Below are positions 11,664 to 56,640 of a stretch of DNA of 64,000 nt, one piece after another (the first letter of the stretch is position 1; each line of letters begins with the position of its first letter). Made by a program: the position numbers and the translations under genes. The stretch is taken from NCBI GenBank assembly GCA_963971425.1, contig OZ020519.1, positions 4,108,028 through 4,172,027 of the forward strand. Reading direction: 5' to 3'. This stretch comes from Bryoerythrophyllum caledonicum (lineage: Eukaryota; Streptophyta; Bryopsida; Pottiales; Pottiaceae). A model generated the notes under the pieces. The model was not told where the DNA came from, searched no databases, and saw nothing but the letters and a program-made list of their open reading frames with translations.

Positions 11664-11979
11664 CGTGAATAAAGTGTCTATTCGTTCCACCACTAAAACC
11701 ATGCCCACCAGACAAGGAATTAGTAGTATGGAACTACTTCCCCCTCTCGAGGGTAGACACTATGTAACAAGTAACCAAAATATACAAGTAACCAAAACAC
11801 AAGTAACCAACCATATCCAAAGAGTAACAAAGAAGGGGGGGAGAGGGGAGAAAATGAGAGGAGAGGGGAGAAATGGAGAGGAGAGAATAGAGAGGAGGGA
11901 AACATTGGAAAGGGAAGGGGTGTTTCTCAATGTGGGAAGTTTTTGACGTTTTAAAGATAAGTAAGTAAAGGGTAATGCT

Positions 11980-13852
11980 AACGAAGGTCTTGTATGTCGG
12001 GGAGGGCTTGGTTGTTTTCAGTTTTGCGTTTGTGTAGTAGGATGGACATAGCATGTTGAATGGCAATGGTGTTTATGTTATTGAAAGTGTGTGAAATTGT
12101 TTCGATGGGGATTTTAAAGGTATCTTCAAGGATTTTTATAGATGGGATAAAGGTGGTGGCACGAGCGCCGGCTGTGATTACAATAAGGGGATCCACTTTC
12201 CATCCGAGGGCTATGATGTCATCAATAAGGGGTTGGTATTTATTCATTTTGTTTTTAATTGTTTCTGGGGAAAATCTATCATTACAATATGTGAATTTGA
12301 TGAATTGAATGGTATAGTCCTGGTTTATGTAGTCGGGTGGGGGGTCATTATATGGTAGGCCTCTAACGCAAAGTATGTCTGGTTTGAGTCTAGTATTGCA
12401 ATGAAATCGTTGAGTTACACATGTACATGGGAGTAGCCAAGGGAAGACCTTGTTTTCTTGTGGGTTGTTATTAAAGGTGTCGGCATTCATGAGAATAAAA
12501 CATCGCGATTTGTTATGGGAGGTAATTAGTTTTCAAATTTCCCATACCACTTTGTTATGTCTTTTGACAATTAAGGAGTGTATGTGGTGGTTTTGGCATT
12601 TAAGTAGAACATGTAGCCATGTGTTGGGGTCCGTAGAAGTGCATATGGAACATGTTATGGATGGGAATCTTTCTATTCCGAAGAAGAGTTGTTTTCGGGC
12701 GTTGCCCATATATTGACCTGTACGGAATTTGATGAGGCATGTTATTTGTGAGTCGGAAATGATGGGATTTTTCCAGAAAGTTGTGGAGAGTTCATTGTCT
12801 ATTTTATTGTTGCCATTCCATTTTTCTCTGTTAGGGAAGTTTTCTGCGATTGTGTCAAGGTTGTTATAGAGGTCTTGTTTTTTGAGATATTTGCTCAAAA
12901 ATCTAACTGGGCCTTTATCGGGGGTATCTTCTTTGGAAAGCCAATCTTCTTATTGAAAGTAGTATGGGGTAGCATGGGCATGTTCGTATGGATCTTTGGC
13001 ATTTTTATGTATTTTTTCTCGGCCCTCTTTTGCTAATTTATCTGCTTCTTTGTTTCCATTAATATTGGCATGTGCTCTAACTTTGTGAAGGGTTGTGATT
13101 TGTGTTCGGTTTTGTAACATTTCGACCATTGACATTAATATGGTTTTGTTGGGATGGCTATTTTGGAGGGTAGGGTGTGTTATTTGGGTGTTTAGTAGGT
13201 AAAGTGCATTGATACAATCGGTAAATATATGTGTGGGTTCGTTGTTGTATTTAGTTGTGATGATTTGTAGTGTTTTGTGGATGGCCATAAGTTCTCCTCT
13301 AAGGATATTTTGTAGTCCATGGAGTCTTTTGGCTAATTTAATTTCTTTGGTACGATTATATATGCCATAGCAAGCTTTTTCTCTGTGCCAATTTCCCGGG
13401 CTAACTTGTTGAGGTGGTTTGAAGGAGCCATCGGTATAGTAGCTATATGCGGGGTCAAATTTGGTGTGGTATAAGTTTGATAATTCGGGAGGGGGGGAGG
13501 TGTTCCAAGGTAGTCTAATGTGTTGTTGAAGTAGTTTAGTTTTGACCATTTTTTGCTTCGGTTAACGGGGGTTGGTATAGGTGTTGGTTGGTGGGGCCAT
13601 TTTAGTGTATAGTCTGTGTATGTTTAGAGTATTTGCTATGGAAGTGAGTTTAGCAAGTTGTTCTAGAGTGCCAAGGTTTTGATTTTGGTGGTCGACACAT
13701 ATTATTTGTAATGTAGATGGTTCTATCCGGGGCTTTTTTAGCTCGGGTGGAATAGTAGATTCTCCGTATGGTATTGAGTCTGCTTCAAATAGTGCAATGA
13801 TATGAGAGTCTGTAAATGGGCTTGAGTGTTGGTTAAAGTTTTGGTACCAGTT
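11980..13852 (-). pseudogene. LINE-B ORF2 part 2: RNase H and C-terminal zinc motif
   Basis: Minus frames 13,549-12,950, 12,898-12,533 and 12,490-11,978 cover an RNase H domain (YYTDGSFKP, RGELMAIHKTLQ, IFTDCINALYLL, NKEADKLAKEG: the D, E, D and final D are all present). Then comes FRTGQYMGNARKQ, a CxxC...H...C finger (CSICTSTDPNTWLHVLLKC) and a C-terminal region with DILCVRGLPYNDPP. Two internal breaks separate the frames. The DNA continues into the MULE insertion at 13,853. Confidence 0.8.
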
Positions 13853-13930
13853 GGGACGAAGCTATCTTGCGTGCGGTGAGGTGTGAGCGGTGAGCGGTGA
13901 GGCATGAGCGGTGAACGGTGAGCCGTAAGA
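13853..13930 (+). repeat. MULE left TIR with sub-terminal GCGGTGA repeats
   Basis: After GCTATCTTG come six to seven copies of a (A)GCGGTGAG-type octamer ending in CGGTGAGCCGTAAG. The right end mirrors this at 21,782-21,853 (CTTACCGCTCACCGCTCAC). Clustered sub-terminal motifs are usual transposase binding sites. Confidence 0.75.
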
Positions 13931-21853: not shown

Positions 21854-24001
21854 GTACCAGTTGTTGTCCGGTGTGATGATGAGTGTAGATGTGTGGTTCG
21901 GGTCATGTTTGGCGGCAAGGCGGGCCCAGTGTAATGTTTGTTGTGTTTCCTCCTCATTGTGGGGTGAGCTATACCATTACCAATCCATTTGTAGTCAAAG
22001 GCCTTTCCCAAGGAGCCAAATATCTTATCTCTTTCAAAGGGTGAGTAGAATTTTTTTAGTTTGGTGGAACATGTGACGAAGGAAGAAAAATATGATTGTT
22101 CGATGTTAAAGGATGAAATTAATGAGTCTAGAATAGGTGTGGGTATTGTGTAATTGTGCATTTTTGAGGGGATTATTTTTTGGAATACAATATTTATATC
22201 TTTGGTATAGCCAAATTAATTCGGTTTCAAATGATTGGGTTGTTGGTTTAATGTTTGTAGGAGTTTGTAGTTTCATGTTGTATTGATTCCATAGCCATTT
22301 GAGTCTAGTAGTGGAAATAGTGTATAAATGTCGGCCATTTTCTTCATATAGATGTGCTTGATTGTTATCTATTTTAATTGTGTTTGAGAATGTGAGTATA
22401 TCATTTTTGGGGTTACATTCTGTTGTATAGATGTTTAGAAGTGGAATAATTATAGGTGGAGTTACGGATCTTGGGTCTTGGAGTTGTTCTTGAGGGTGGT
22501 GCGCTTGAATGATTTCCGAGTAAAATTTATTTTGAATTCTTTGATAATATTGTTTAAATTTTTTGGTGTTGTATGTGGAGGTATTGCGGTTGTGTCGTGG
22601 AAAGAGGTTTCTTTGAGGAAGCCATTTGTTGAATGAATTGTTGTTGTGTTGCCATTGGCATAAATATCTTGTATAAATATTTTGTATATTGTTAGAATCT
22701 ATGTGTTGTATATGTTCATGATGTATGATGTTATTAATGGGGTATATGGTGGGGTTTTTAAGGGTTGTATGTTGGAGGGCGGGGGTGGTATGGGTGTGAG
22801 GGATTGGAAGGGTGGATTGGAGGGGGGGATATTTCTTGGGATGATGTTATTGTTGATAGAAATGAATGGATCTTGGAGTATGTAGGAGTATGGGTGTATG
22901 TTACAAGGGATATTGCATGTGGTGGGACATGTTGGTCGACAAAAAAGTTGTTTGGCAATATTTAGGGCACTCTTGATTAGTTTGGATGGTGTGAAGTGGA
23001 AGATTTTGAAGTCCTCATTTTTCATGATGTGCATGCCGTTTGGTAAAGTAATTTGTTTTAATTCAAAAATATTTTTTGAGAGGAGTTTTTGTAGAAGTTT
23101 TTGGGAGAGTTGGGCATTGAGTGTGTTATGGTTTTGTGTTTCTTGCCGCCATATTATTTCTAGTTATGTTAGATCAAAGAGGAAATTTGGGAGTGTACTT
23201 TTAAGGTGGACTTTAGCTATGTGTTTCAATAAGAAAAATGTACGAGTTATTGGTGATCTTATGCAATCGGTTTTTTTAATTCTAGGTATATTTTCAGCAC
23301 CACCATATCGAGTGAGAACATAGTGAGTTAATCCATTATATATTTTTCTAAGCCTACCTTTGTCATTGAGAGCATTTTGTAATTGTTCACCTATACATCG
23401 GAGATAGGCATTTTTGAGGGAGAAAGCTTCAAGTCCAAATAAGTTATGTGGGAGTTGGGTTATTGTATTTAACATACACTTTGGCATACCACAAATGATT
23501 TTTTGTATGGCTATAATCTTTTGATCTAGTTTTTTGATAGCTAGCATAGGATATGGTACACCATAGAAGTTGTATGCTACAGCGTAGAAGCTGTATGCTA
23601 CACCTAGGCGTAGTACGGTGTCTACCATTTTTATTTTTTGTTTCATAGTGGCTGGATAGGTTGTCAATTCTTTACATTGTTTAATGAGTTTTGTGGTCGT
23701 GGTGTGAATTTGGATTTTCCATTTTAGAGAGGGAACAAGGTTTGTGCCTAGGTATACGTATGGTTCATTTTGGTGTAGTATGGGGATTGGTTGGTTGCGG
23801 TAATTGATGTTAGAAGCTTGCATTAGGGCTTTAAATGCAATTGGATTTATTTTGGATTTATTTGGACATCCGAAGCAGCACATTTTAGGACGCCTACGTC
23901 CATTCCAGTCCATTTATAATATTTATCTATTTTATCAATTTGTACTTGTAGTGATTTTATTTTCTTGGTTATAGCAGCAAGGTCATCGGCGTAGGCGGCA
24001 G
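21854..24001 (-). pseudogene. LINE-B ORF2 part 1: RT C-terminal half and connector
   Basis: Continuous homology with LINE-A ORF2 from the RT YADD box onward. The long open part is 23,913-23,164 (249 codons), including IPILHQNEPYVYLGTNLVPS, MKQKIKMVDTVLR and LPHNLFGLEAFSLKNAYLRC. The copy retains the active-site Tyr of AYADD, which is His in LINE-A. It also retains a Gln and Leu codons where LINE-A has stops. A short duplication (two similar AYSFYAVAY/AYNFYGVPY blocks near 23,560-23,610) is private to this copy. Later frames are interrupted, so it is not functional. Confidence 0.8.
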
Positions 24002-24028
24002 AATCGAGCAGCAATTGTCTTTAGACAT

Positions 24029-30941: not shown

Positions 30942-31623
30942 ATTGAGATTCATGGTTTGAATTGCAGATGCGTTTACGATTGTTAACCGGAGATTTAGCC
31001 TGTTGTGAGGTCCGGGTAGTAATTTTTTTGTTACTTAGTAGTTATGGGTAGAAAAGTATGGACAGTGGATGAAACTGTCCGGTCTTGACAGTGGATAAAA
31101 TTGTTTGGACATGAATGTCATCCGTCCGGACATCTTTCATCCAACTATGGATGATTAAGATTTGGAGGGAGTAGAGAGCCGCCGTCTTGGACTTTGGAGG
31201 CGCTCTTCTCTTCTCCTTTCTCTTCTCTTTTTTTTCTTGTCTCTTGATGTATTGCAACTTAGAGTGTGTAGGTGTGGTTAGAGAGCTAGTGATTGATGAA
31301 TGTGATGTGTGGAGCTAGGGTGAGAGTGAGTGTGAATGTGAAGTATATTAAAGTTTGAGGAAGTAAAGCAAGACTTTGCTACTATCTATTGTGTGTTTTT
31401 GTTAGGGTTTGAAGGTGTGAGTAGATCTTGTTGTTAGAAGAGCATTTGTAGTGAAACTTGGTTGTCGGTATTGTAAATCCAGCCTAAAAACACTAGATTT
31501 TATATAGATCTAGCTTGATCTACCAAACCCTACTCAAATATGGTACATTAGAATTAGAAACAAGTCCGGATTTGTTGTGGATATAATCTGATTTGCTGGA
31601 TTTTTGTGTAAAAACTCCGGAAC
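30942..31623. other. Intergenic, no gene seen
   Basis: Contains a pyrimidine-rich run at 31,200-31,250 (CTCTTCTCCTTTCTCTTC words). No gene recognised. Confidence 0.4.
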
Positions 31624-33777
31624 TAACATGGAATTCGCTAAATATGCACTTGGTTGATTTTACTTTACTTCTTTGCTGCATATGGTTTGCGCATCTAAAT
31701 CAATGGAAAGATGGTTTTTTTTTTTTGAGTGGAGATATGGGACATTGTTCACCACATACATAAAAGCCAATGTTTAATTTAAGGTAGAACAAAACTAAAT
31801 TTCCTTTGACCATTCTCCATACATCTTATAGCTTATAAAACCATTTTCATATAATGAAGAAAGTTACAACTCTGTCTTCTCCTAAAACTGCTAAAATGCA
31901 TTGAATAAATACGACCAAATACCGCATAATTGTATACTACATATAATACGTAGGTTCCTATATCCATAAACATGTGCATGTGTCTACGTCTACATACCAT
32001 ACCATGTACATATGTATAGTATATTTCTTTTCTCCCTTTCTTTGGGCCCATATACATATGTATATTTCTAGATATGTATATATTTCTAGTTGTGCACGTA
32101 TCGGTAAGTACTAATATACAATATACAATGTACAATGTGATAAGTCTAAGGTATAAGCTACGCCTCTTAAAACAAATATATAAGATCTTCTTCAGCGTGC
32201 CATCTGATTGGCTAGAAGATCATTCTCCACTTCTTCATCTTAACGTGCCACGAGGTCCAACAGATGTGCTCTCATAGGTTCCGGAATACGGATTGCCTTT
32301 TCTATCCGTACACCATATACAGTACAATACAACTCCACAACTTTTCCCTTTTTATTACTCTTTGATGTATGCATTCACGATATCCAACATGTTTCAATGG
32401 GTACCCAATCAGACATTTTGTACGAAGGCTCCCAAATCACATGAAGGCAATTGTTGTATCGTTGATGCAATTCTCCATCTCGATCTCTTCTTCCTGCCTT
32501 TGCTCTTGGCCAATACCACACAACCTTCAAACGTTATTTACTATATGCTTTCTCAACCTCAAAATCCGGTGCTACCTTCCTTACCGATTCTTTTCATTTT
32601 CATTCTAAAACATATCTAAGTGACAAACAAATAAAATGCAAATTTAACATTTTCAAACATCCTCTCCTTGCACATTTTTTTTGAAAATGCTACAACTTTC
32701 CTTAACCTCTAGATTTTTTTCTACAAGGACCTAACACCATGTTCAACATGATAGTAAAAAATTTAAATATTGTGTAGTGTAAAAACTTGGCACCAAGTGA
32801 AGTCAAAGTCAGCTGATCCTCTCAACGCAGGGAAGAAAAATGACATCTTCTCTCATTTCAAACACTATAATCTTCCGATCCGTACGGTCAAATCTTGTGA
32901 AATTTTGTAAGCATATTAATGACTGAGGCATGTTCAAGATCCTACGGTCAAAACGTTAAAGTGGTAGCTAGGATATTCTATTTTACTCCCTACAGCAAAA
33001 TCAACAGTTCTGGATCCCCTATGCCATGCAACAAAGGAGGGGGGTCGAGGCCTCGACCCTCTTGCCATGAAACAAATAAATCACATAACAACTTTGAAAG
33101 TTCACATACCTTGCACATGTCTTGATCACAAATCAAAGGCCGCTCAACAACAATTTTGCCCTCCTCACGACTGCATCATTTCATCCACCACATCCAAAAA
33201 AAACAAAACGACCTTCAATCCTGTGCGCTAACCTACACATCAAACTACTCATGCACCAAATGAACCCTCGAAGTTAGTTGGGATCCTTATATACATTGAA
33301 TCCATATTTAATAATGTTATTCAACAAACACTTTATAAAATCTTGAACCCATCATTTTAACACTGTAATAATTTTAATTCAATATTAGAAGGACATAGTA
33401 GAGAATGCAAGTACAATTAAGATTGTTCACCTTAAAAATAGATTCTACAATGTGTGGGTCCCACATTACATTTGCTCATGTTCATATGAAGATCATCATA
33501 ACCTTATTACAATTTGGTTATTTTATACCCTAAGAACCAAGGTAAAGTCAACTTTGGCGGGCCCCACCACATGGATTAATGTTGGATTGAATTTTGAACA
33601 ACACTCAAATGATGATATAGTATGTGAAATCTTATTGTATATAGTATGTGGGGCCCACTTCGGACCCACCACCCATACATAGTTTTACATTTGAAAATCT
33701 CTTAGATTGAACATATGAATTCATGCTTGTACTTTTGTTTGTTGGATTGCACTTTTTAATAATGTATCCATATGAGT
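31624..33777 (+). repeat. Large inverted repeat, left arm, outer part
   Basis: Near-identical, in reverse orientation, to 54,457-52,304; translated frames are identical over 60-108 codons in both copies. The arm starts at TAACATGGAATTCGCTAAA and is interrupted after TCCATATGAGT (33,767-33,777) by LINE-A. It resumes at 47,951. It carries an R1 repeat (32,640-32,905). It has no protein I recognise. Confidence 0.9.
32640..32905 (-). repeat. Dispersed repeat family R1, copy in the left arm
   Basis: Reverse complement of the R1 landmarks (AACTTGGCACCAAGTGAAGT, CAAAGTCAGCTGATCCTCTC, TTTCAAACACTATAATC). The mirror copy is at 53,190-53,450. Confidence 0.6.
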
Positions 33778-36099: not shown

Positions 36100-37746
36100 A
36101 TGGCAGGAACCGCAAGGAAGAACTTATCTTTAGACTTAGAGATGGTGGACCAAACCGAGGATAGCCCCAACTTCACCACAAAATCAAAGACACCAAGAGG
36201 CAAAGAAGGCGAAACGAGCAGTAGCAAGAGAAGCAAAAAGTCCAACATCAATGAAGGTAAGTCCATAAAACCCCCCTTTACTACTTACAAATTTTGGATG
36301 GGGTTTCAGGCCATGGAAGCACTCGCAATAGAAGAAGGAGCTGAGGAACTCTTTAGCGGCGAAACGGTAAAGGACATGATGACTAGAGGACTCTAAGAAG
36401 AGGAGGCCAAAGAGGCCCACGAAGCATGGGTAGCCTTCCCTCGAATCCCACATACCTTGTATCCCATGGAGGTAAGGAAAGGTATTGTCAAACAACACTA
36501 TAATATTACACAACTTCCTTGCGAAGTCAAGACAAACGAATCCACAGGCCTATCTCTTGACTTTCATATTGCCATCCACTTTGAAATCCCTAACACCCCT
36601 ATTATGTATGACACGGCCAAGAACATGATAATGCAAAGGTTTGAAAAAATGAACATCTTGCTTGGCACCGGTGTCTATGACCCATTATACATACCATGTC
36701 TTAGTGTCAAACAAGGGAAAACAAAAGGTGTATGGGTGGGAAACTTTAAGGCACATCTCCTTAAACCCGAATTTGATGGTCTTGCATTGCTTAAAGGACT
36801 AAGAATGTTCATTTTAAACATAGATGGTCAAAATGTAGTGGGCAAAGTTTGCAAGACTTTCAACAACCTTTCTAAAGGTTCTAACCTCTCAGTGAAAGTG
36901 AAGAGTGAGTGTCTAGTGGCAATTTCAGCTCAAGCGGTGTTTGAAGAAACACTTGGGCATAGCTTTTCACAAGGCCATGACTACAAAATAACCGACGTGC
37001 AAAAGGTGTATGGTGAATCATGGGCATTCATCATTGCCTCAACACCAACACAAGTGAAGAACATGATCATTAACCGCATTGTGGTGCAAAACGAAGTTTT
37101 GCTTCCAAGGCAAGTGGTTGACACCAAAGGACCAAATGGTGTCATCGAAACAAAGGCAAGGAAAGAGGCCCTAACCCTTACCCTCTCTTCCCTCCCTATC
37201 ACTTTGAACACCACAAACACCTCACAAGCAATTTATAAAATCATGGGAGCCCTCAATGTTAGAGAAATTTGGTTTCATAGAGAGAGAGACAATTACCACA
37301 ATGGAAGTTGCAATGTGCTTTGTGCTAACCCCATTGTGTATAGATCCTTTGTGAAAAAGACCCATGTGATCAATGGGAACTATGTGAACTTTTCGCCACA
37401 CCCAAGGAGTTTGGAAGGTCTACACCCACCCACCGCCGACGCCATCAAAGACTTTGGTTTTGATGACATCAACACCGCCCTCATCAACACAATCACCACA
37501 TTCAATGTTCAAGCCTCCCCATCATCACCCCCTTATTGCACCACGAAGGAAGTGGAAAAAATGATCAAAGACAACAACAAGAAGGTGATTCAAGCAAGCA
37601 AAGACTACACCGACATGAAGCACGAAGAACTCAAGCTCCACATGGAAGACATCCAAGCAACAATGTTTTCACTAGTGCAAAAGATGTCTGCCGTGACCGG
37701 TAAATCCAACTTACCACTTCTCCAAGACAAACCGCCAAACATGTAA
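36100..37746 (+). pseudogene. LINE-A ORF1 (one in-frame stop)
   Basis: From ATG at 36,100 the frame runs 548 codons to TAA at 37,744, broken only by TAA at 36,394 (context GL-stop-EEEAKEAHEAW). The N-terminus is basic and low-complexity (SSSKRSKKSN). The middle is globular, with RMFILNIDGQNVVGKV and a KARKEALTLTLSSLP stretch. The C-terminus (KEVEKMIKDNNKKVIQASKD through HMEDIQATMFSLVQKM) looks like a coiled coil. LINE ORF1 proteins are usually RNA-binding chaperones of the particle; no zinc knuckle or RRM is obvious here. The stop codon overlaps an ATG in TAATG at 37,744-37,748. Confidence 0.7.
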
Positions 37747-37748
37747 TG
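37744..37748 (+). promoter_or_regulatory. TAATG stop/start overlap between ORF1 and ORF2
   Basis: ORF1's TAA shares its last A with an ATG that opens the next frame (37,746-38,240). UAAUG is the known termination-reinitiation site of some LINEs such as SART1 and fits coupled translation of ORF2. The role here is inferred. Confidence 0.55.
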
Positions 37749-38029
37749 ACCAAAGACCACACGGTAAAACCTAGTTACCACCTCTACACTTCTTATACAA
37801 TACTATGTAGTAGAAAGTATACTATAGCACAAATTTCTACATACCCTAGCTACATATTGAACAAATACATACATTGTATTAGACACTATCTTAAATACAA
37901 AATACAATACTATACCAAACTTCTCAAATACTTACAGTACATTAAAGAAAAAACAAAACTACACATATATTACAAACCATGTATAAAATCTGAGTTGATA
38001 CTTTATAAAACAAATACCAGTACAAATAA

Positions 38030-38560
38030 AAGAATACATGATGATACATATACTGATACATATACGTGTATGAATACTGATGTATATACCGGTACCTATA
38101 CTAATATGTATACTGGTACACATACGAATACAAATACGGATACATATATTGGTACATATACTGGTACATATACTGATATTTATACTAGTACGTATATTGA
38201 AACAAATACGGGTCCATATATCGTACGTATACTGGTATAAATACTGATACAAATACTAGTAACCATACCAGTACGTATAAAGGAACTAATACTGGTACAT
38301 ATACCGGAACATATACCGATACGTATACTGATTTAAATACTGGGACAAATACTGGTACGTACACTCATACAAACACTGGTATATATACTAATACTGATAT
38401 TGATATTTATACTAATACAAATACGACTGGAAATACCAATACGAACTCTAATACATGTACTAATACTAACACAAATACTAACATGGATACTGATATAAAT
38501 ACCAAGACAAATACTGAAACGTACACTAACACAAACATACGAATGAATACTAAACCAATT
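38030..38560 (+). repeat. ATACTGGTACAT-type short tandem repeat
   Basis: Degenerate 6/12-bp units (ATACTGGTACAT, ATACTGATACAA) over about 500 bp, encoding (T/N)-Y/N-T-G/D/N repeats. A second block with the same unit is at 39,670-39,900. Confidence 0.85.
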
Positions 38561-38756
38561 AAAACTACAAAGACAATCACACACCATAAACAAAACACAT
38601 ACATACATATACACACACACAAAAACGAATACATGCAATCAAAAAAATACAAAATAAAATCCAAAAGCTTATTTCACCTCAAATTATAAACACAAAACCA
38701 GTTTCATTTCAAAAAATAAAAATTGAGAAATCACCACTAGAAAATATTAATGAAAC

Positions 38757-39610
38757 ATCCCTTCATAAGAAAACAAATAATAAGAACATAACAATAAACA
38801 GTAGTACTAAAAATAGAATATGCTTCCTAAGAAATTCAAAAATAAGGGATGGAAAATTATCCAAAATAGTAACAAGAAATAATTATCATAAGAATTCAAA
38901 TAATGAGAATATAGCAACAAATAAAAAACTAAAAATAGAAAATGCTTCCTAAGGAAATCAAAAATAAGGGATGGAAAATTAACAAAACTAGTAATGAGAA
39001 TTAATTATCATAAGAATACAAATATTAAAAACATAGCTATAAACAACATTACTAAAAATAGAATATGCTTCTTAAGAAATTCAAAAATAAGAGATGGAAA
39101 ATTAACCAAAATAGTAACGAGAAATAATTATCATAAGAATTCAAATAATAAGAATATAGCAACAAACAACAGAACTAAAAATAGAAAATGCTACCTAAGG
39201 AAATCCAAAATAGGGGATGGAAAATTAACAAAATTAGTAATGAGAATGGATTATAATAAAAATACAAGTATGGATAACATAGCTATAAACAACACTACTA
39301 AAAATAAAATATGCTTCATAAGAAATTCAAATATAAGGGATGGAAAATTCACCAAAATAGTAATGGGAATTAATTATAATAAGAATACAAATATGAAGAA
39401 CATAGATATAAATAGCAGTACTAAAAATTGAATATGCTTCCAAAGAAATTCAAATATGAAGGTTGGAAAATTCAAGAAATTAGTAATGGGAATTAATTAT
39501 AATAAGAGTACAAATATGAAGAACATAGCTACAAACATCAGTACTAAAAATAGAATATGCATCCTAAGAAATTCAAAAATCAGGGATGGAAAATTAGAAT
39601 TACTAAAAAT
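38757..39610 (+). repeat. Tandem repeat, unit about 122-123 bp (41 codons)
   Basis: Seven units start near 38,757, 38,881, 39,003, 39,126, 39,248, 39,369 and 39,491, each with CATAAGAA.ACAAAT, TACTAAAAATAGAATATGC, AAGAAATTCAAAAATA and GGGATGGAAAATTA. Early units alternate in two subtypes (AATTATCATAAGAATTC versus AATACAAATAT), giving a higher-order pair. The period is close to a codon multiple, and 38,994-39,428 reads through unbroken. Confidence 0.85.
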
Positions 39611-39964
39611 AGAAATCTTAATGATAGTAAGAATATATACGAATCTGATTGAAATAAATATCAATATATTTTTTCCGTATACTGGTATGTATCTGTATAT
39701 ATATCTGTATAATGGTACGTATACAGATACATATACTAATACAAATACTGATACTTACACTAATACAAATACTAATATCAATATTGGTACGTATACTAGT
39801 ATAAATTATAACACGAATACTAACAAGGATACTGATACAAACACCGAGACAAAAACCGAGGCATATACTAATACGAACATACGAATAAATACTAATATAA
39901 AAACAAATAAAAATACATATACACACACAAAGACAACAACACACCATCAACGTAATACATACAG

Positions 39965-40003
39965 AGAAGAACGCCGGTCTCCAAAGAAGGCCGGCGGGAA
40001 TCA
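39965..40003 (-). mobile_element. Tail-only micro-insertion of the LINE/SINE 3' hairpin
   Basis: About 40 bp reading, on the minus strand, ATTCCCGCCGGCCTTC...GACCGGCGTTCTTCT. This is the family's final hairpin plus CTT end and nothing else. It interrupts a block that is continuous in the related module at 38,581-38,615, and similar AA(T/C)ACATAC sequences flank it. Confidence 0.6.
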
Positions 40004-40109
40004 TAACACATACATACACACACACAAAAACAAATACATGCAATAAAAAAAACACCAAAATCACATTCAAAAACAAAAAATTCTAAAACAAAACAAAAAA
40101 CCCATCTAC

Positions 40110-40160
40110 TACAAACTTCTAATATTAATTGGAGGAGACATGGAGACTAACCCAAGACCC
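40110..40160 (+). other. Degenerate upstream 2A-like motif
   Basis: Frame reads YKLLILIGGDMETNPRP, then MPNILKRHPTSHKKNAK. The critical NPGP is NPRP and the D-V/I-E core is DME, so skipping is not expected. It is a duplicate of the intact motif 0.5 kb downstream. Confidence 0.7.
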
Positions 40161-40623
40161 ATGCCGAACATATTAAAAAGACACCCCACTTCACACAAAA
40201 AGAATGCCAAAACATATTTCATACCAAATACTAATACAAACACCAAAACAAACAATTGTACAAACCACAAAGTATATAATAACACCGCATATGAAAAAAA
40301 AGGACTTAAAAACCACTTTAAAAACCAACATAAAGCCACATACAAATAGTCTTAAACATAATAGTTACATATACACACGGACAAAAACAACCAAGATAAA
40401 ATACAACCAATCATACATACATCCATACACCACTAAAACAAAAACAACCACAAAAAACACATGGACAAAAAATAAACTAAAGACAAAAACAACTACACCT
40501 ACTATAAAAATAAATAAACCCACAACTCACACACAAAATACAAACATCCACCTACCCCCAAACCAACAAGCCATTAATAACACAACAAAGCCTTTAAAAT
40601 ACACCACTAAACATATATACCAC

Positions 40624-40671
40624 AAGCTTCTACTACTTCTAGGAGGAGACATTGAAACCAACCCGGGACCC
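40624..40671 (+). other. 2A-like ribosome-skipping motif
   Basis: KLLLLLGGDIETNPGP followed by MPNIL matches the 2A consensus D(V/I)ExNPG|P with the usual hydrophobic run before it. In known 2A peptides the ribosome releases the chain at NPG and resumes at P, giving two proteins from one frame. Here it would separate the repeat leader from the endonuclease/RT protein. A TAA five codons later (40,687) breaks this copy; the upstream duplicate reads Lys there. 2A-like motifs are documented in several APE-type LINEs. Confidence 0.75.
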
Positions 40672-43600
40672 ATGCCCAATATACTATAAAGACATCCTAC
40701 ATCACATAAGAAAAATGCCAAAATCTACTTTATACCTAATACCATAAAACTCCAACCAAAATATGAACACATTGCAAAATCCTTCGCACCATTTCTAAAA
40801 AACACACACACATTACACCACATACACAACACTTCCCACCCAAACATTGCCCAATACATACAACAAAAAAATACGCATCCACCACCCCACATCTTATATG
40901 CACTAATAATCACTACTCATCCAAGCATAGATGAATGTAACCAACTTCTAAATCCACAAAATTTGAACACAATTACATGGACTAATACACTCCTACAAAC
41001 CTTATTAACCTTACTAAACCCACCAGAACGACACATTTACACTCCACACCCCTATACTGAATTCCTAATAGAAAACCAAAATATTATAAACCATGAGAAC
41101 TCAATACATAAAAGACTATACGACTTCTTACATAGTCAAGACATACCACCCTCAAATGATATAATAAAACTAAAATTCTCTTACCTCCCTAACAACCTCA
41201 TAAATGAATCACTAAAATGCCTAGACCCTATACCAGAATACACCCACCCACCTCCACCTCTTCCCTACATCCCTCCTCAAAATCAAAACGTTAGACCAAA
41301 TCAAGAAAATACAGACATAATCACATGGAATGCCTCCTCACTAAACACTGCCCTTCCTAGCTTACAAACTCTAGTCGCAAACACAAACACACCACCTGCT
41401 CTTATAGTTATACAAGAAACAAAACTAACCGCCACAAAATCTACAAAATATATACAAAATATATTTCAAAACTATAAACTCATCTTTAACAACACACATG
41501 CACTTACAAGATGCATGCAACAAAGGAGACCATACACACCGGGCCGCGGTGGCCTCCTTACATTAATACACAAAAAATATACATTCCCCGGCAACATCAA
41601 CAAAATCCCTACCCCAATGCACATATCACCATACATTCAAATAATTAAAATCACTAATCACCCACTACAACCGTGGTTAATCTTTCACATGTATATGCCA
41701 TCCCATCCCGAAGATACTAGATTTCTCTTAGATATACAAAACACTATTACAACCCATATTAATAATCATCCCAATCATACATACCTATAATGTGGAGACT
41801 TCAATAGAGACATAGCGCTAATTGGCCGCCAAAACGGAAACCACCACACCCCCCCTCAAAACATTGATTATCAATGGCGCCGCTTCACAGAAAACTTAAA
41901 CTTCACTTACATCAATACCGATACACAATTCTCTAGACAAGGTGGCTACAATTATAGTGATTGGAGTCTAATAGATGGTTTCTATATAAATACAAACAAC
42001 AACACACAATACACAGCCACAACAAACAAAGATATTATTCTCAATTCGGACCACTCACCCGTACAACTGCACATCCCAAATAACACACTAATTAGTAGAA
42101 CTCCTACAATCCCAAACAAAGACACTATACGCATACTCAACCCCATCCCAAAAACCAACATAGAAAAATTCAACACAAAATTCTTCGAAGAAAACTCCGT
42201 ACAAATAGACTCCCTCATAAACACTCTTGAAAACAATAGCCAATTAACACAAGCTCAATGGCAAGAAGCATGCCACTCTCTAGACAAACTCATCAATAAA
42301 ATCTCTGATACACTAGAACAAACTTGTAGAGCACACCCAATACCCCAAATGACAAACATAACCTCTCAACAAGGCGGATATCTACCCCGCAAACTTTCTA
42401 AAACTTGGAAACAACACTTAACCACATACCATACCATACGTAAAACCATTAGAATTGTAAAAAACAACCCTCAATGGCGTAACCACCCCATACACAACGA
42501 ACTACTAACTATACAACACATCCAAATCCCTACCCCGCCGCCTGCTGACCTTCCCCACAATACATGGATAAAAGATATCGCGATAATTGCAAAAAATGCC
42601 AACATACAAGCCCGGAAAATAATCACAAAATACACAAAAGAAAACATTAAAAAAGCCATCTCAAAATACAGACAACTATACGAAATCAGCCCCAAAAAAA
42701 TTAACAAAAAAGTCTTTAAAAACCTTGAATCCCCACCAATGGATTGTATCAAAGATCAATATAATAATATTCTAACTAGCCCCGAAGTCATTGCGAATGA
42801 AATATTTAACCAACAAACAAAAACCAATAGACCAATAGTACCAACATGTAATTACCAGCCACAACATACAATAGAATGCACATGTGCAATACGCCAATAC
42901 CCTTGGCACGACCTGGACGGATATACCCTTGACAAACGGGGCGAACTAGAAATTCCACTTCATAAATACCTCAACAGAGCCACATACGACACATGCCTTC
43001 AAAATCTTGGAAATAATAAAGCCCCAGGCCCAGACCGCATACCAAACTCAATACTAAAAAACATGCCTCCAAGATTTCACAAACTATTATTTTTGTTCTT
43101 CTCCCACTACTATAAACAAAAACAGATACCAAACTCATGGAAATTAAGTACAACAAATCTACTATACAAAAAAGGCGACCCGTCCATACTACCCAACCAT
43201 AGACCAATTGCACTAGCTAACACAATATACAAACTCTTTACCAGTACACTCACCTCCATACTATCCTCATACGGCAAAAAATTCAAAATCCTACATGATA
43301 GTCAAGAAGGATTTAGAGCAGAGAGAAGTACCGCACGACAAATACAAACTTTAATAGCCGCACTAGAAGACGCAAAGTTTACTAACCAAGATATATACAT
43401 ACTATACGTGGACTTCAAAAATGCCTTTGGCTCAATTGACCATGCCCGACTTCTAGCAATAATGATGGACCTTGGTTACCCAAAAGATGCAACTACACTT
43501 GTTGGAAACATCTATTCTAAATCATCTACATGTTATACCGGTGAACACTTTGGGAAAACAAAACCTATACCTATCCAAAGAGGAACTATACAAGGGGATA

Positions 43601-46600
43601 CCCTCAGCCCATACCTATTCATTATATTTCTAGAACCACTACTCAGATGGCTAGAAAGAGGAAATTACGGATACACTTTTGGCACATCACAGGTCATAAT
43701 AAACTCGGCCGCACACGCGGATGACCTAGCCACTATAACTAACAAAATCAAATCAATCCAAATACAACTAAACAAAATTGATAGATGTTGTAAATGGGCC
43801 GGTATGGACGTAGGTGTCCGAAAATGTGCCGCTACCGGTTGCCCAAACAAATCCAAATTCAATCCTACCACTTTCAAAGCCCTAATGCAAGCCTCGAACA
43901 TCAATTACCGCAATCAACCGATCCCCATACTACACCAAAATGAACCATACATATACTTAGGCACAAACCTTGTTCCCTCACTAAAATGGAAAATCCAAAT
44001 CCACACCACAACGACAAAACTCATCAAACAATGCAAAGAACTAACAACATGCCCAGCCACCATGAAACAAAAAATAAAAATGGTTGATACCGTACTACGC
44101 CCAGGTGTGGCATACAGTTTCTACGGTGTACCATACTCTATGCCAGCTATCAAAAAACTTGATAAAAAAATAATAGCCATACAAAAAACCATATGTGGAT
44201 TACCAAAATGTATGTCAAACGCAATAACCCAACTACCACATAACCTATTTGGACTTGAAGCTTTCTCCCTCAAAAATGCATACCTCCGATGTATAGGCGA
44301 ACAACTGCAAAATGCTCTAAACAATAAAGGAAGACTTGGGAAAATATATAATGGATTAACTCACTATGTCCTTGCCCAATATGGTGGCGCTGAAAACATA
44401 CCGAGAATTAAAAAAAGTGACTGCATAAGATCACCAATAACACGAACATTCTTCTTATGAAAACATATAGCTAAAGCCCACCTTAAAAGTACGCTCCCGA
44501 ACTTCCTCACTAATCCTACAACACTAGAAATACTATGGCGCCAAGAAACATTAAATCATAACACACTCAATGCCCAACTCTCCCAAAAGCTTCTACAAAA
44601 ACTCCTCTCAAAAAATATTTTTGAACTAAACCAAATTACCTTACCTAACGGTACACACATCATGAACAATGAGGACTTCAAAACCTACCACTTCACCCCA
44701 TCTAAACTAATAAAGAGTGCCCTAAGTGTTGCTAAACAACTATTTTGCTACATAACATGCCCCACTATATGTCATACTCCTTGCAACATACACCCATACT
44801 CTCATACACTTAAAGATCCATTCATCACCCTCAACAATAACATCATCCCAAGAAATATTCCCACACCAACCAATCCCCCTAACCCTCCACATACATACCA
44901 CCCCCGCCCCCCAACATACATCCCCAAAAACCCTACCACATACCCCATTAATAATATCATAAACCATAAACATATCCAACACACAGACACAAATAACATA
45001 CAAAATACCTACACAAAATATCTATGCCAATGGCAACACAATGATAATACATACAATAAATGGCTCCCCCAAAGAGACCTTTTTCCACGGCATGACACCA
45101 ATACCTCCACACATTACACTGAAAAATTAAAACAATACTACCAAAAGATCCAAAACAAAATATACTCAGATATCATCCTTGCCCACCATCCACAAGAACA
45201 ATCCTCAGACTCAAGGTCCGTAACGCCACCCATAATTATCCCACTCTTAAACATCTACACAACAGATTGCAACCCCGAAAATGATATCCTTACATCCTCA
45301 AACACAATTCAAATAGATAACAATCAAGCACATCTATACGAAGAAAACGGCCGACATTTACACACCATACCCATTACCCGCCTCCAATGGTTATGGAACC
45401 AATATCATACAAAATTACAAACCCCTACAAACATTGAACCAACAACCTAACCCTTTGAAACCGAACTAATATGGCTTTACCAAAGATATAAATATCAAAT
45501 ACCAAAAACTGACCCCCTCAAAAATGCGCAATACACAATACCCACCCCCATTTTAGACTCACTAATATCATCCTTTAACATCGAACACTCATACTTTTCC
45601 TCCCCGATCACATGTCCTACCAAACTAAAAAAATTCTACTCACCGTACGAAAGAGACAAAATATTTGGATCCCTAGGCAAGGCCTTTGAACACAAATGGA
45701 TCGGAAATGGAATAGCTCACCCCCACAATGAGAAAGACATAGAACAAGCCATACATTGGGCTAGACTTGCCGCCAAACACGATCCAAATAACACAAAAAC
45801 AATCATCGTCACACCGAACAACAATTGGTACCAAAACAACAACCAACATTCAAACCCATTCCCAGATTCCCACATCATTGCATTATTTGAAGCAGACACA
45901 ATACCATACGAAGAACCTAATATCCCACCCGAGCTAAAAAAACCCCGAATAGAGCCATCTACATTACAAATACTATGCGTCCATCATCAAAATCGAAACC
46001 TGGACTCCCTAGAACAACTTGCGGAATTTACCTCCATAACAGACAATCTAGACATACAACGACCATACACAAAACCGGCCCCACCAACACCCATACAAAC
46101 CCCCGTAAACAAATGTAAAAAATGGTCAAAATTAAACTATGACAACAACACATTAAACTACTCCGTCATACCTCCCCCTCTCCCAGACTACCCAACTCAT
46201 ACCACACCAAAATTTAACCCCGCATACAGTTATTACACCGACGGCTCCTTTAAACCACCGGAACAAATTAGCCCGGGCTCTTGGCGAAGAGAAAAAGTTG
46301 GCTATGGCATATATAATTCTACCAAAGAAATTAAACTAGCCAAAAGACTCCATGGACTACAAAATATGCTCAGCGCAGAACTCATGGCCATCCACAAAAC
46401 ACTACAAATCATCACAACAAAATACAGAAATGAACGTGCACATATATTCAATGATTGTATAAATGCACTCTACCTACTAAACACTCAAATAACACACCCA
46501 ACCCTTCACAACAGTCACCCCGACCAAACCATACTAACATCAATGGTACAAATGTTACAAAAACGTACACAAATCACAACCCTTCACAAAGTCAGAGCCC

Positions 46601-47694
46601 ATGCCAACATTGATGGCAACGAACAAGCAAACAAACTTGCAAAAGAAGGCCGAGAAAAAACACACAAAAACGCCAAAGACCCTCACGAACATGCTCATGC
46701 CACCCCATACTACTTTCAAAAAGAAGATTGGCCTTCCAAAGAAGATACCCGTGACAAAGGCCCAATTAGATTTATGGGCAAATATCTCAAAAAACAAGAC
46801 CTCTACAACAACCTGGATACAATCTTTGAAAATATTCCTAACATAGAAAAATGGACTAACAATAACGACATAGACAATGAACTCTCTACAAACTTTTGGA
46901 AAAACCCCATCATCTCAGACTCACAAATAACGTGCCTCATCAAATTCCGTACGGGTCAGTACATGGGAAACGCTCGCAAACAACTCTTATTTGGAATAGA
47001 TAGATTTCCATCCATAACATGCCCCATATGCCCCTCAACGGACCCCGACACATGGCTTCATGTGCTACTCAAATGCCAAAATCACCACATTCACTCTCTA
47101 ATCATCAAAAGACATAATAAAGCGGTATGGGAAATTCGAAAACTAATCACCTCCTACAAAAAATCGAGATGTTTCATACTTATGAACGCCGGCACTTTTA
47201 ATAGCAATCCACAAGAAAACACAGTCCCCCCATGGCTACTTCCATGCTCATGTATGACCCAAAGATGTCATTGCAACGCTAGGCTCAAACCGGACATTCT
47301 TTGTGTAAAAGGTTTACCATACAACGACCCACCACCTGAGAACATCAACCAAGACTACACCATTCAATTCATCGAATTTACATATTGCAACGATAGATTC
47401 TCCCCGGAAACAATACAAAACAAAATAGATAAATACCAACCCCTCATAGACGACATCATTGCCCTCGGCTAGAATGTGGACCCCCTTATTGTTATCACAT
47501 CCGGCGCTCGTGCCACCACCTTTATCCCATCTATGAAAACTCTCGAAGATACCTTCAAGATACCCATTGATACAATTAAAACTATCTTTAAAAATATCAA
47601 CACCATCGCTATTCAACATGCCATGTCTATTTTACTGCATAAACGCAAAATCGAAAACAACCAAGTCCTCCCTCATAGGCAAGACCCCCCTTAG
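40672..47694 (+). pseudogene. LINE-A ORF2: APE endonuclease, reverse transcriptase, RNase H, zinc motif
   Basis: One frame from the 2A motif to the TAG at 47,692, without frameshifts but with in-frame stops at 40,687, 41,788, 44,458, 45,448 and 47,470. APE: DIITWNASSL (about 41,316), IQETKL, CGDFNRD (41,791) and NSDHSPVQLHI (about 42,043). RT: NNKAPGPDRIPNS, LYVDFKNAFGSID, IQRGTIQGDTLSPYLF and HADDLA (about 43,714; the Y/F before ADD is His). RNase H: YYTDGSFKP (about 46,230), SAELMAIHKTL and GNEQANKLAKEG, where the last catalytic Asp is Asn. A CxxC..H..C finger (CPICPSTDPDTWLHVLLKC, about 47,018) follows. LINE-B keeps Gln and Trp at two of the stops, so these are decay changes of this copy. 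The product nicked target DNA and copied the element's RNA. Confidence 0.85.
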
Positions 47695-47939
47695 GAACTT
47701 CGCCACTCTATCTCTTCCTGATTGGCTGCCTGTTTGGTTTTGCTTTTTGTTCTTTAGTTAGTTTGGTCATGGTTGGTCGTTGTTGGTTGGTTTTTGGCTA
47801 CTCGTTACATAGTGTCTACCCTCGAAAGGGGAAAGTAGTTCCAGTTCGCTAATTCCTTGTCCGGTGGGCATGGTCTTAGCAATGGAACAAACAGACACTT
47901 TATTCACGCCGGTTCCCTTCGGGAACCGGCGTTCTTCTC
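47695..47939 (+). other. LINE-A 3' UTR and terminal hairpin
   Basis: Contains the block shared with the SINE (CTCGAAAGGGGAAAGTAGTT, CTTGTCCGGTGG, CAGACACTTTATTCACGCC). The hairpin at 47,908-47,930 has a perfect 10-bp stem (GCCGGTTCCC / GGGAACCGGC) around a TTC loop, equivalent to a C(UUCG)G tetraloop. The end is GTTCTTC(TC). Expected role: recognition by the element's own RT. Confidence 0.8.
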
Positions 47940-47950
47940 TCCATATGAGT

Positions 47951-52030: not shown

Positions 52031-54457
52031 TTAACCAAAAACTCTTTGCACCACCATCACTATTTGCCATCAATTCTTCTTTTATCTATGGTTTATAGGG
52101 TGTAGATGCAACAAAAATGAAAATGTCCACACTATTTAAAAAATGGTGTTGCCAAAACTTTGGTCTCTTGAAAATTTCTGTCGCCACTCTAGCACTTTAA
52201 AAAAATGAGTAAAACAAAAACATTGCATCAATGCGCTATTATTATAGTTAAATAAGATGTACATAATATAATTACTAAATTTGGATTCAATAGTGTTAAA
52301 GTGACTCATATGGATACATTATTAAAAAGTGCAATCCAACAAACAAAAGTACAAGCATGAATTCATATGTTCAATCTAAGAGATTTTCAAATGTAAAACT
52401 ATGTATGGGTGGTGGGTCCGAAGTGGGCCCCACATACTATATACAATAAGATTTCACATACTATATCATCATTTGAGTGTTGTTCAAAATTCAATCCAAC
52501 ATTAATCCATGTGGTGGGGCCCGCCAAAGTTGACTTTACCTTGGTTCTTAGGGTATAAAATAACCAAATTGTAATAAGGTTATGATGATCTTCATATGAA
52601 CATGAGCAAATGTAATGTGGGACCCACACATTGTAGAATCTATTTTTAAGGTGAACAATCTTAATTGTACTTGCATTCTCTACTATGTCCTTCTAATATT
52701 GAATTAAAATTATTACAGTGTTAAAATGATGGGTTCAAGATTTTATAAAGTGTTTGTTGAATAACATTATTAAATATGGATTCAATGTATATAAGGATCC
52801 CAACTAACTTCGAGGGTTCATTTGGTGCATGAGTAGTTTGATGTGTAGGTTAGCGCACAGGATTGAAGGTCGTTTTGTTTTTTTTGGATGTGGTGGATGA
52901 AATGATGCAGTCGTGAGGAGGGCAAAATTGTTGTTGAGCGGCCTTTGATTTGTGATCAAGACATGTGCAAGGTATGTGAACTTTCAAAGTTGTTATGTGA
53001 TTTATTTGTTTCATGGCAAGAGGGTCGAGGCCTCGACCCCCCTCCTTTGTTGCATGGCATAGGGGATCCAGAACTGTTGATTTTGCTGTAGGGAGTAAAA
53101 TAGAATATCCTAGCTACCACTTTAACGTTTTGACCGTAGGATCTTGAACATGCCTCAGTCATTAACATGCTTACAAAATTTCACAAGATTTGACCGTACG
53201 GATCGGAAGATTATAGTGTTTGAAATGAGAGAAGATGTCATTTTTCTTCCCTGCGTTGAGAGGATCAGCTGACTTTGACTTCACTTGGTGCCAAGTTTTT
53301 ACACTACACAATATTTAAATTTTTTACTATCATGTTGAACATGGTGTTAGGTCCTTGTAGAAAAAAATCTAGAGGTTAAGGAAAGTTGTAGCATTTTCAA
53401 AAAAAATGTGCAAGGAGAGGATGTTTGAAAATGTTAAATTTGCATTTTATTTGTTTGTCACTTAGATATGTTTTAGAATGAAAATGAAAAGAATCGGTAA
53501 GGAAGGTAGCACCGGATTTTGAGGTTGAGAAAGCATATAGTAAATAACGTTTGAAGGTTGTGTGGTATTGGCCAAGAGCAAAGGCAGGAAGAAGAGATCG
53601 AGATGGAGAATTGCATCAACGATACAACAATTGCCTTCATGTGATTTGGGAGCCTTCGTACAAAATGTCTGATTGGGTACCCATTGAAACATGTTGGATA
53701 TCGTGAATGCATACATCAAAGAGTAATAAAAAGGGAAAAGTTGTGGAGTTGTATTGTACTGTATATGGTGTACGGATAGAAAAGGCAATCCGTATTCCGG
53801 AACCTATGAGAGCACATCTGTTGGACCTCGTGGCACGTTAAGATGAAGAAGTGGAGAATGATCTTCTAGCCAATCAGATGGCACGCTGAAGAAGATCTTA
53901 TATATTTGTTTTAAGAGGCGTAGCTTATACCTTAGACTTATCACATTGTACATTGTATATTGTATATTAGTACTTACCGATACGTGCACAACTAGAAATA
54001 TATACATATCTAGAAATATACATATGTATATGGGCCCAAAGAAAGGGAGAAAAGAAATATACTATACATATGTACATGGTATGGTATGTAGACGTAGACA
54101 CATGCACATGTTTATGGATATAGGAACCTACGTATTATATGTAGTATACAATTATGCGGTATTTGGTCGTATTTATTCAATGCATTTTAGCAGTTTTAGG
54201 AGAAGACAGAGTTGTAACTTTCTTTATTACATGAAAATGGTTTTATAAGCTACAAGATGTATGGAGAATGGTCAAAGGAAATTTAGTTTTGTTCTACCTT
54301 AAATTAAACATTGGCTTTTATGTATGTGGTGAACAATGTCCCATATCTCCACTCAAAAAAAAAAACCCATCTTTCCATTGATTTAGATGCACAAACCATA
54401 TGCAGCAAAGAAGTAAAGTAAAATCAACCAAGTGCATCTTTAGCGAATTCCATGTTA
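52031..54457 (-). repeat. Large inverted repeat, right arm (uninterrupted)
   Basis: Reverse complement of the left arm without the LINE-A insertion. It preserves the pre-insertion sequence, with ACTCATATGGA at 52,304-52,314 once only. Substitutions are few, for example GTGCATC versus GCGCATC near the outer end and short changes in a poly-T run. It includes the mirror R1 copy at 53,190-53,450. Confidence 0.9.
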
Positions 54458-56640
54458 ATTGTAAGTTAAACCTAAGGAAAACTCTAGAAACAAAGTTCCA
54501 ACGAACTCCAAATTCAGATCTAGGTTGAATCCGGAGTTTCAGGTCCAGTATAAGTCCAGTCCAGGACTTTTGTCTTACACTTATGGAACTTTCGTTTGAA
54601 TGAGCGTTGGAAGTAATCCTCACTCAAGCTTGAGGTGAAATTATTTCTTTAACAACGATTCAATGCAGTCAAATAATCTAAATGCTCTTACAATTCAATG
54701 TCAGTCAACTAATCTAAATGTTCTTTACAATCCATTGTTAGGCTTCCAATCCACTGCAATTCAAATAATTTGGAGTATAATGTGGAAGACGGCAATGAGA
54801 ATTTATCCCTAAGCAATGACTTATTGTAAGGTTAAAAACACGGGTCAACTTACACGAACACCCAAGACTCACACACAACTAGGTTCCCTCTTGGGGATGG
54901 ACTAACATCAAATACTTAAGTAGTTTTCTCGAATATCCATTCTATAATGCAATTTCTACCTGACACTTGAAGGATTTTGTTACCTAAACCACTAATTATT
55001 CATTCTTATCTCTATTCCTTTAAGTTTCAATCACATGGATGCACACTCATCAAGCATGTGTTTCTTTTAAAATGAGTCTTGCTCATTTTTGCCGTGTGGG
55101 TGATTTATCTCTTGTTACTCTATCCCACTCGGGAAATGGATCTTATCCATTAAAAACTAGTTGTTAGTTGTCATTTGAGCTTTTAAAGTTTTGCTTCTTA
55201 CCTCTAAGCAAAACGCTCCATCTTCATCACGTCCGTCCTCGGCTAAACTGTCACTCCCTTCGGACGTAAATACTCAACAACCAAAACACATTAATTCACA
55301 AAAAAACACTTGTTATGTGTTAGATTGTGATCCAATTCAATCTCTTCCAATAGGCTTAAAAAGCTTACACTTAGTGGAATTCACTTCCTTTATACCAATC
55401 TTTAATCTCAAGATTGTTTTACTTATCCTAGGATTTATGTTAAAGATCTTGAGTTAACAATATTCCAATTATTCAATTGCAATGTAATTTGATCACTAAG
55501 TTCAACATTAACAATTTAGATGCTTTTTAATAAGCAATTTTATGTATGTGCTTAAGATGCCTTACACTAGTCTCAAGTGTAAGATATTACACCATACAAT
55601 ATTTAATTCAACAATAATAAATAATATAATATATTTTTATTAAGAATTCTTACAACCAATTTGTAAGTTTTACACAATTCTAGCTCCAAGCTAGAACACA
55701 CACTTTCTTCATCAAATGTGGTATGAGTCTCACATAACACACTACTCTCACAACATAAGAGATTTCTATAATTACTACCTTCCAAAGCTAGGACTCACAT
55801 GAATTCTTCAAATGTGGTGTTTTTCTAAAGAAAAACTATACTCTACTACTCAATTCTTTGAAGAATCACAACCTTTCTTAAGGTTTCTACCCTTTCACTT
55901 GAAACCTTTCCATTATTTTAAAGGTTGTGACCTTCCTAATTGTCCTTTCACTATATACTTTAAAACTACTTTCTATCTTTTAACTTATTTAAGCTTTTCA
56001 AGCTTTTACTTTAACTTCAGCTTTTACTTTCCTATTGTAAAGCTATTTCTTAAGCTCTTTAACTCCAAATTTTAAAAAATTTAACACTTTTAACATTTCG
56101 GCTCTACACTTACCTTGCTCATTGCATGGACACAATCTACCTACGTTCCCATGACTTATACAATTTTTGACTATTTTTTGATAATTTCCTTTAAAATCTA
56201 TTGAATCAATGCCATGTTGGCATCTGGAATTAAATCCAAGACCCTTCGACTAATGCACCAAGTTTTTGCCACTCAACCTCCCTTTCAATGAATGTGAAAT
56301 TCCTTGTAGAAAATTACATTTGTTATGGCACAAGATGAAATTTCTAATAGGGACGAGGCTTCAGTGTTTGCAACAACGGTCCTTTCACGGAAAACCCAAT
56401 GCCAACACCAAAGCTCTCATCAAGAAAATACCCCTCTCTAACAACAACCCTACTTCAAATGCCACACAATGGGATACTATAGGAGTACTTTTGCATGACT
56501 GCAAAATTTGGCCATCTTCCAATATTGCTGTAGTATTGAAATTTTTTGCCTACTTTGTAAATCCAAACGATTATAAGTTATATTGCTCAAAAAAATTATA
56601 CATCATCTCTTGTTGAGATAAGGTGTGAGACCACTGAACT
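54458..56640. other. Intergenic, no gene seen
   Basis: AT-rich DNA beyond the right arm. Frames at 55,191-55,457, 55,812-56,075 and 56,266-56,616 have no recognisable motif. Sequence outside the arms does not match between left and right. Confidence 0.45.

Follow-up and report, generated by a model that had tools for sequence, protein, structure and literature searches.

An open leader between the ORF1 stop and a conserved 2A motif in a plant LINE family

How might ribosomes that finish the first open reading frame (ORF1) of a long interspersed nuclear element (LINE) reach the enzyme encoded behind it, when a long stretch of repeats lies between the two? The question is raised by a LINE on the plus strand of a 64,000-nucleotide stretch of Bryoerythrophyllum caledonicum DNA (assembly GCA_963971425.1, contig OZ020519.1, positions 4,108,028 to 4,172,027; hereafter the window), where it extends from about position 36100 to 47945. 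ORF1 (36100..37746) is followed by a repeat-coded leader (37746..40641), by a 2A-like motif and by ORF2, which holds regions for an apurinic/apyrimidinic endonuclease (APE), a reverse transcriptase (RT) and an RNase H. The window copy is a broken member of an APE-type plant LINE family: the translation of ORF1 meets a stop at 36394–36396, the leader is interrupted by stops and frame changes, and ORF2 carries stops at 41788, 44458, 45448 and 47470 as well as a TAA, at 40687, that follows the 2A.

From the comparison with other copies, we propose that in working members of the family ribosomes probably enter at the ORF1 stop, read a disposable leader and free the enzyme at the last 2A. Ribosomes at the end of ORF1 would enter the −1 frame at its stop, read a leader of roughly 500 to 1,400 codons in intact loci (about 100 in two damaged ones) and skip one peptide bond at the 2A just before the endonuclease. 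The endonuclease–RT–RNase H protein would then start separately with proline and the leader would be discarded, which would leave its amino-acid content nearly free. Selection would mainly remove stops and net frame changes from the leader, while leaders would grow by duplication of a repeat-plus-2A module, the upstream 2A copies decaying and the last one being kept.

Other copies were collected from the 437-Mb assembly. A degenerate DNA pattern for the 2A gave 1,529 matches (777 plus 752) and its reversed control none, and the 217 residues after the 2A, used as a query, gave 4,027 candidates; the 150 that were scored are 92–100% identical, and their open frames reach 3,764 amino acids. A search with the PCIF1-like domain of ORF2 (see below) scored 150 places, 33 of which (hand count) share a frame length of exactly 3,087 amino acids; part of the family is therefore probably young. 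The loci discussed here came from the 2A pattern search (L001–L008), from the window's 26-nt 2A word or a near form of it (the 13 loci L009–L021), from a second 2A word (the seven loci L022–L028), from long PCIF1-bearing frames (L036–L040) and from very long frames (L041–L042). They are related by descent, and the junction-motif counts given below are counts of non-independent events. ORF1 homologues in other loci share 31–90% amino-acid identity; a Pfam scan of part of the window's ORF1 (36400–37743) returned no family.

The ORF1–leader junction

The original prediction had ORF1 end in TAATG, and it does: the stop codon TAA (37744–37746) is overlapped by an ATG (37746–37748), the overlap (37744..37748, plus strand; TAATGA in context) putting the leader in the −1 frame. 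As a general device of the family, UAAUG was rejected. Among 69 junctions near the window's (up to three mismatches, control 0; classes counted by hand), the six bases after the last ATG of ORF1 read CAATGA, an AUGA form, in 36, TGAAGA, a GUGA form, in 14 and TAATGA in only 7, the rarer classes being TAGTGA (4), TAATAA (3), TAAAGA (2) and TGATGA, TAACGA and CAATAA (one each). Lineages whose ORF1 is 31–57% identical to that of the window have GUGA, UUGA, CUAG, CUAA or GUAG as the preceding base plus stop. UAAUG is thus a variant of the window's lineage, and what stays constant across divergent lineages is an open −1 frame and a GNCAAAC motif rather than an AUG.

In the window this motif reads GCCAAAC and lies 3 nt before the ORF1 stop (37734..37740, plus strand). 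In 22 of 24 loci it precedes the stop by 0, 3 or 6 nt, as it does in 20 of the 21 that were placed without using it (L014 lacks it; L003, L006 and L042 were placed with its help and are left out of the second count), and its two synonymous positions have base rates of 0.21 and 0.37 in six ORF1s. In one survey, all 17 loci with a placed ORF1 keep the −1 frame open past the ORF1 stop; an eighteenth row, L042, was misplaced there. Ten loci were scanned downstream of the junction for whichever came first in frame, an AUG or a stop: nine reached an AUG and L012 a stop, over stretches of 23–154 codons. Stop-free shuffles numbered 0 of 200 for L016, L012, L026 and L015 and 1 of 200 for L021; the five shorter stretches, with 3–90 of 200 shuffles stop-free, carry little information.

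These observations bear on whether entry is a classical UAAUG/AUGA stop–start reinitiation that requires an AUG, with the AUG-less lineages having decayed. Such a device is known in the LINE SART1 (PMC5972666), and an AUG does overlap the stop in 43 of the 69 window-like junctions (TAATGA 7, CAATGA 36). However, loci with an unbroken leader lack it: L016 and L041 have CUAG at the junction and do not reach an in-frame AUG until 462 and 93 nt further on, respectively, and L038–L040 have UUGA. Moreover, L016, L015 and L026 stay open for 93–154 codons before any AUG, beyond what 200 shuffles produced. We consider the classical form improbable.

Since divergent lineages keep the open −1 frame and GNCAAAC and not the AUG, stop–start reinitiation becomes one of two candidate entry steps. 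The prediction that the element combines two translation devices is supported for the 2A motif, which other copies share, and left conditional for the stop–start step. We see about an even chance that entry is a coupled reinitiation in which the start codon is relaxed: caliciviral coupled reinitiation tolerates near- and non-cognate codons (PMC5972666), and reinitiation would therefore fit the varied stop overlaps. The caliciviral UGGGA motif 1, sought as TGGGA in the 100 nt that precede the stop, is present in just one of 24 loci.

The other candidate, a −1 shift at GNCAAAC, would fit the conserved heptamer better, and we rate its chance a little short of even. Slippery heptamers follow the rule X XXY YYZ; GNCAAAC has the A AAC half and lacks the X XX half, so that its P-site half is a non-standard slippery codon, which speaks against a shift, as does the unremarkable structure downstream. 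In the 80 nt downstream of the junction, predicted RNA structure (without pseudoknots) reached z < −2 in two of 15 loci (L020 and L040) and was unremarkable in 13, and upstream of the junction it did so in none of the 15. On these z scores, no consistent RNA structure was found at the junction.

An open leader of changing content

A single open leader frame in the window copy was rejected: its −1 frame meets a first stop at 38238, a total of 31 in that frame precede the last 2A, and the latter is itself in a different frame. The long frame predicted after ORF1 is found in other copies instead. In six of 24 loci (L016, L038, L039, L040, L041 and L042) the −1 frame is uninterrupted between the ORF1 stop and the last NPGP, over 495–1,407 codons; as L038–L040 are near-identical and L042 has no recognisable ORF1, these amount to five loci with ORF1, representing three lineages. 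L020 is open for 869 codons from TAATG, through its first 2A. Other copies thus keep the ORF1 stop, an open leader and NPGP in one frame, and the outcome named beforehand as telling against the original prediction was not found.

Eleven leader stretches, selected from ten loci for their openness, contain no stop, whereas their shuffles (300 each) average 18–83 stops with none stop-free, and their other two frames hold 13–125 stops. In L036+L037, a young-looking form that lies antisense inside another copy, shows no long ORF1 upstream and is grouped with the 33 places in 3,087-residue frames, the 2A frame is free of stops over the 476 codons that precede its first AUG, the other frames there having 20 and 23 stops; the 1.8 kb upstream of that AUG contains 6 ATG against about 22 expected. 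Because it is open, the leader is likely to be translated. The leader could instead be an untranslated spacer, with ORF2 starting at an internal AUG near the 2A and the openness an accident of low complexity. Repeat units of 12 and 123 nt do stay open once open, and the leader is A-rich in most loci. A spacer, however, would account poorly for the many stops in the other frames of the same stretches, for the lack of a single stop-free shuffle and for the 156–230 substitutions that separate the aligned codons of intact leaders without a stop (7–9 stops would be expected from these changes, and none occurs), and we regard it as very improbable.

As predicted, the leader of the window codes for a Thr/Asn/Tyr-rich repeat region. 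Tandem Repeats Finder identified 12-nt repeats at 38045–38389 and 39727–39916 and 6.8 copies of a 123-nt, 41-codon unit at 38763..39596 (plus strand), both unit lengths being multiples of three. Content varies by subfamily, with Thr-Tyr repeats in some, Lys/Asn-rich leaders in L016, L041 and L042, a Pro/His-rich one in L040 and trinucleotide-repeat leaders encoding either poly-Gln (L006) or, a short distance ahead of the 2A, long poly-Asn runs (L002, L007). The ratio of nonsynonymous to synonymous substitution rates (dN/dS) was 0.62–0.87 over alignable blocks of L016, L041 and L042, which were picked as intact, and in a broader set it was 0.50–1.02 for leaders and 0.10–0.27 for ORF2. The leader values are close to what selection for openness only would leave. 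Evolution thus seems to keep the leader readable with little regard to its content, and the turnover of content together with the contrast in dN/dS to ORF2 makes the leader look disposable.

The same data bear on whether the leader instead has a role of its own as a protein released by the 2A, such as membrane targeting or RNA binding. The leaders of L041 and L042 open with strongly hydrophobic stretches before turning Lys/Asn-rich, dN/dS is below 1, and sea urchin NLR proteins offer a known case of a 2A that doubles as a signal sequence (PMC4981915). Yet the content is wholly different among subfamilies (poly-Asn, poly-Gln, Thr-Tyr, Pro/His-rich), and we hold a functional leader protein to be unlikely.

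Several points weigh against a leader kept open for translation and then discarded. Among the 24 loci whose junction was located, 18 have a leader with a stop or a frame change, and both leaders with a length near 100 codons (L003, L006) show damage. Most loci were chosen for NPGP or long frames, so that their openness and their NPGP are partly a matter of choice. The leader dN/dS lies somewhat below 1, which may reflect weak protein constraint. Finally, of the 22 indels that distinguish intact leaders, just 12 have lengths divisible by three and ten do not.

Two further observations concern the leader's sequence. The stretch 39963–40001 resembles, in antisense and with 79% complementarity, the hairpin found at the element's own 3′ end by an inverted-repeat search (47902..47940, plus strand), and L010 contains an insert similar to 39963–40001 that reads RRRRRTPVPE in frame.

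Serial 2A copies

The canonical GGDIETNPGP that had been predicted before the APE–RT–RNase H protein was confirmed at 40642..40671 (plus strand), adjoining the endonuclease and ahead of the APE, RT and RNase H matches, and genome-wide matches recover it in other copies. A degenerate copy, GGDMETNPRP, at 40131..40160 on the same strand, 511 bp upstream of the last 2A, had been overlooked. Over 120 nt there are 27 differences between the two, of which 20 fall on third codon positions, a pattern suggesting that each peptide was preserved long after the copies had diverged; between tandem 2As dN/dS is 0.25–0.66, with one of 21 pairs lacking a synonymous change.

Two 2A copies about 170 codons apart are present in nine of the 13 loci L009–L021, the upstream copy reading NPRP in eight and NPGP in L009. 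None of the seven loci L022–L028 has a close pair, and in L028 the two sites are separated by 2.15 kb. Three copies (GELEINPGP, GGDMETNPRP and GGDIETNPGP) occur in L041, L040 has a distinct pair (RRDIETNPGP and GGDIETNPGP), and L036 retains an upstream relic, GGDINTRP. The last 2A reads NPGP throughout the sampled loci, which were mostly chosen for NPGP. When the codon of the skipping glycine was left free, the pattern gave 1,444 matches, and the glycine is kept in 91 of the 100 matches listed; as this pattern fixes the remaining residues, it sees copies otherwise intact at the motif. Among the same 100 matches, the glycine codons use all four third bases (hand count).

The core of 2A, or StopGo, sequences has been given as (D/G/C/N)(V/I)ExNPGP (PMC12846837). 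GDIETNPGP, in the window and in other loci, conforms to this core, whereas the upstream NPRP copies and GELEINPGP do not. Because of the motif and its conservation, the last 2A is predicted to skip, and the serial copies are consistent with growth of the leader by duplication. The composite in which entry at GNCAAAC needs no start codon, the leader is selected just for openness and drifts in length and content, and decaying serial 2As record its growth is offered more tentatively, with somewhat less than even confidence.

ORF2 domains and other features of the window

The APE-type endonuclease region (41317..42060, plus strand) was recognised by a PDB match to exonuclease III (E 0.0009 over 41 residues) and a TIGR00633 match below the family cut-off (E 0.0016); its start follows the database match and its end was set by eye from GDFN and SDHSP, which we take to be motifs of such enzymes. 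The RT (43177..43962, plus strand) matches PF00078 (E 2.2e-25), and its nearest solved structures are those of R2 (E 3.4e-31); plasmid records gave a single weak RT match. RNase H lies at 46225..46653 on the plus strand (PF00075, E 1e-9). These matches assign the element to the APE-type LINEs, with an RT and, upstream of it as expected, a weak APE match.

Between RT and RNase H lies a PCIF1-like domain (45454..45822, plus strand; PF12237, E 1.8e-9, over the cut-off). All 150 scored places in the genome pass the Pfam cut-off (loci including L029–L032 and L037), and a PDB search with the domain matched human PCIF1 no better than E 0.19. Six sequences read A-H-P-H where PCIF1 has its NPPF motif, so that the methylation motif seems lost. 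Our literature searches, in the sources available in part, turned up no PCIF1 domain in a LINE. At the C-terminus, a Cys/His knuckle (CX2CX9HX4C) with a KPD...E stretch (47020..47469, plus strand; also L037:5307-6047) resembles by eye the restriction-like endonuclease (RLE) of R2 type, and PDB and profile searches with it returned no RLE or R2 match. If this candidate is an RLE, the element would be a dual-endonuclease element.

Self-comparison of the window revealed two further partial copies on the minus strand, each 83% identical, one covering the 3′ part (11978..13853) and the other the middle part (21854..24002). A 2.16-kb inverted repeat (31621–33777 versus 52304–54460, 99.6% identical) is unrelated to the LINE as far as examined, and an open frame at 6386–7231 on the minus strand matches a group II intron maturase (PF01348, E 3.6e-16). 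An Rfam search returned no family. In the assembly rbcL occurs at three places; the genes at L033 and L034 differ, perhaps reflecting two plants or a divergent copy. The translations of these two, like an accD-like neighbour in L033, look bryophyte-like and of land-plant type.

Relation to known systems

Work by Heras (2006) and Odon (2013) reportedly described 2A-bearing retrotransposons without long terminal repeats. Such elements of trypanosomes (L1Tc) and sea urchin likewise have DxExNPGP in frame with an endonuclease–RT protein; here, in contrast, the host is a plant, the leader reaches about 1,400 codons and there are often two or three 2As, the upstream ones degenerate. As in SART1 (PMC5972666), the ORF1 stop overlaps the downstream frame, and the window itself has UAAUG, but in this family UAAUG is a minority form beside AUGA, GUGA and UUGA, and there are lineages without any NUG codon there. 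Like Dualen/RandI elements (APE, RLE and RNase H), with which the family was compared by description, it has APE, RT and RNase H in one protein, together with a C-terminal knuckle and KPD...E stretch as a by-eye RLE candidate and an RT closest to R2 among solved structures; the PCIF1-like domain that separates RT from RNase H sets it apart. In picornaviruses, too, several 2A-NPGP sites share one frame (PMC11512398); most upstream copies in the LINE family, by contrast, are degenerate, and stretches of low complexity lie between the sites. The claim that each device is known singly thus holds, from 2A in LINEs and UAAUG in SART1; as to the combination in a plant, literature searches of incomplete journal coverage, in sources available in part, turned up no plant LINE with a 2A. 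A 2026 survey reports no evidence that plant viruses naturally use StopGo (PMC12846837).

If the proposed mechanism is true, the family would provide a natural long coding stretch selected almost solely for its readability, and an example of natural 2A use in plants. Its members supply many natural variants that bear on the context of 2A and on the need for an AUG in plant ORF1–ORF2 coupling.

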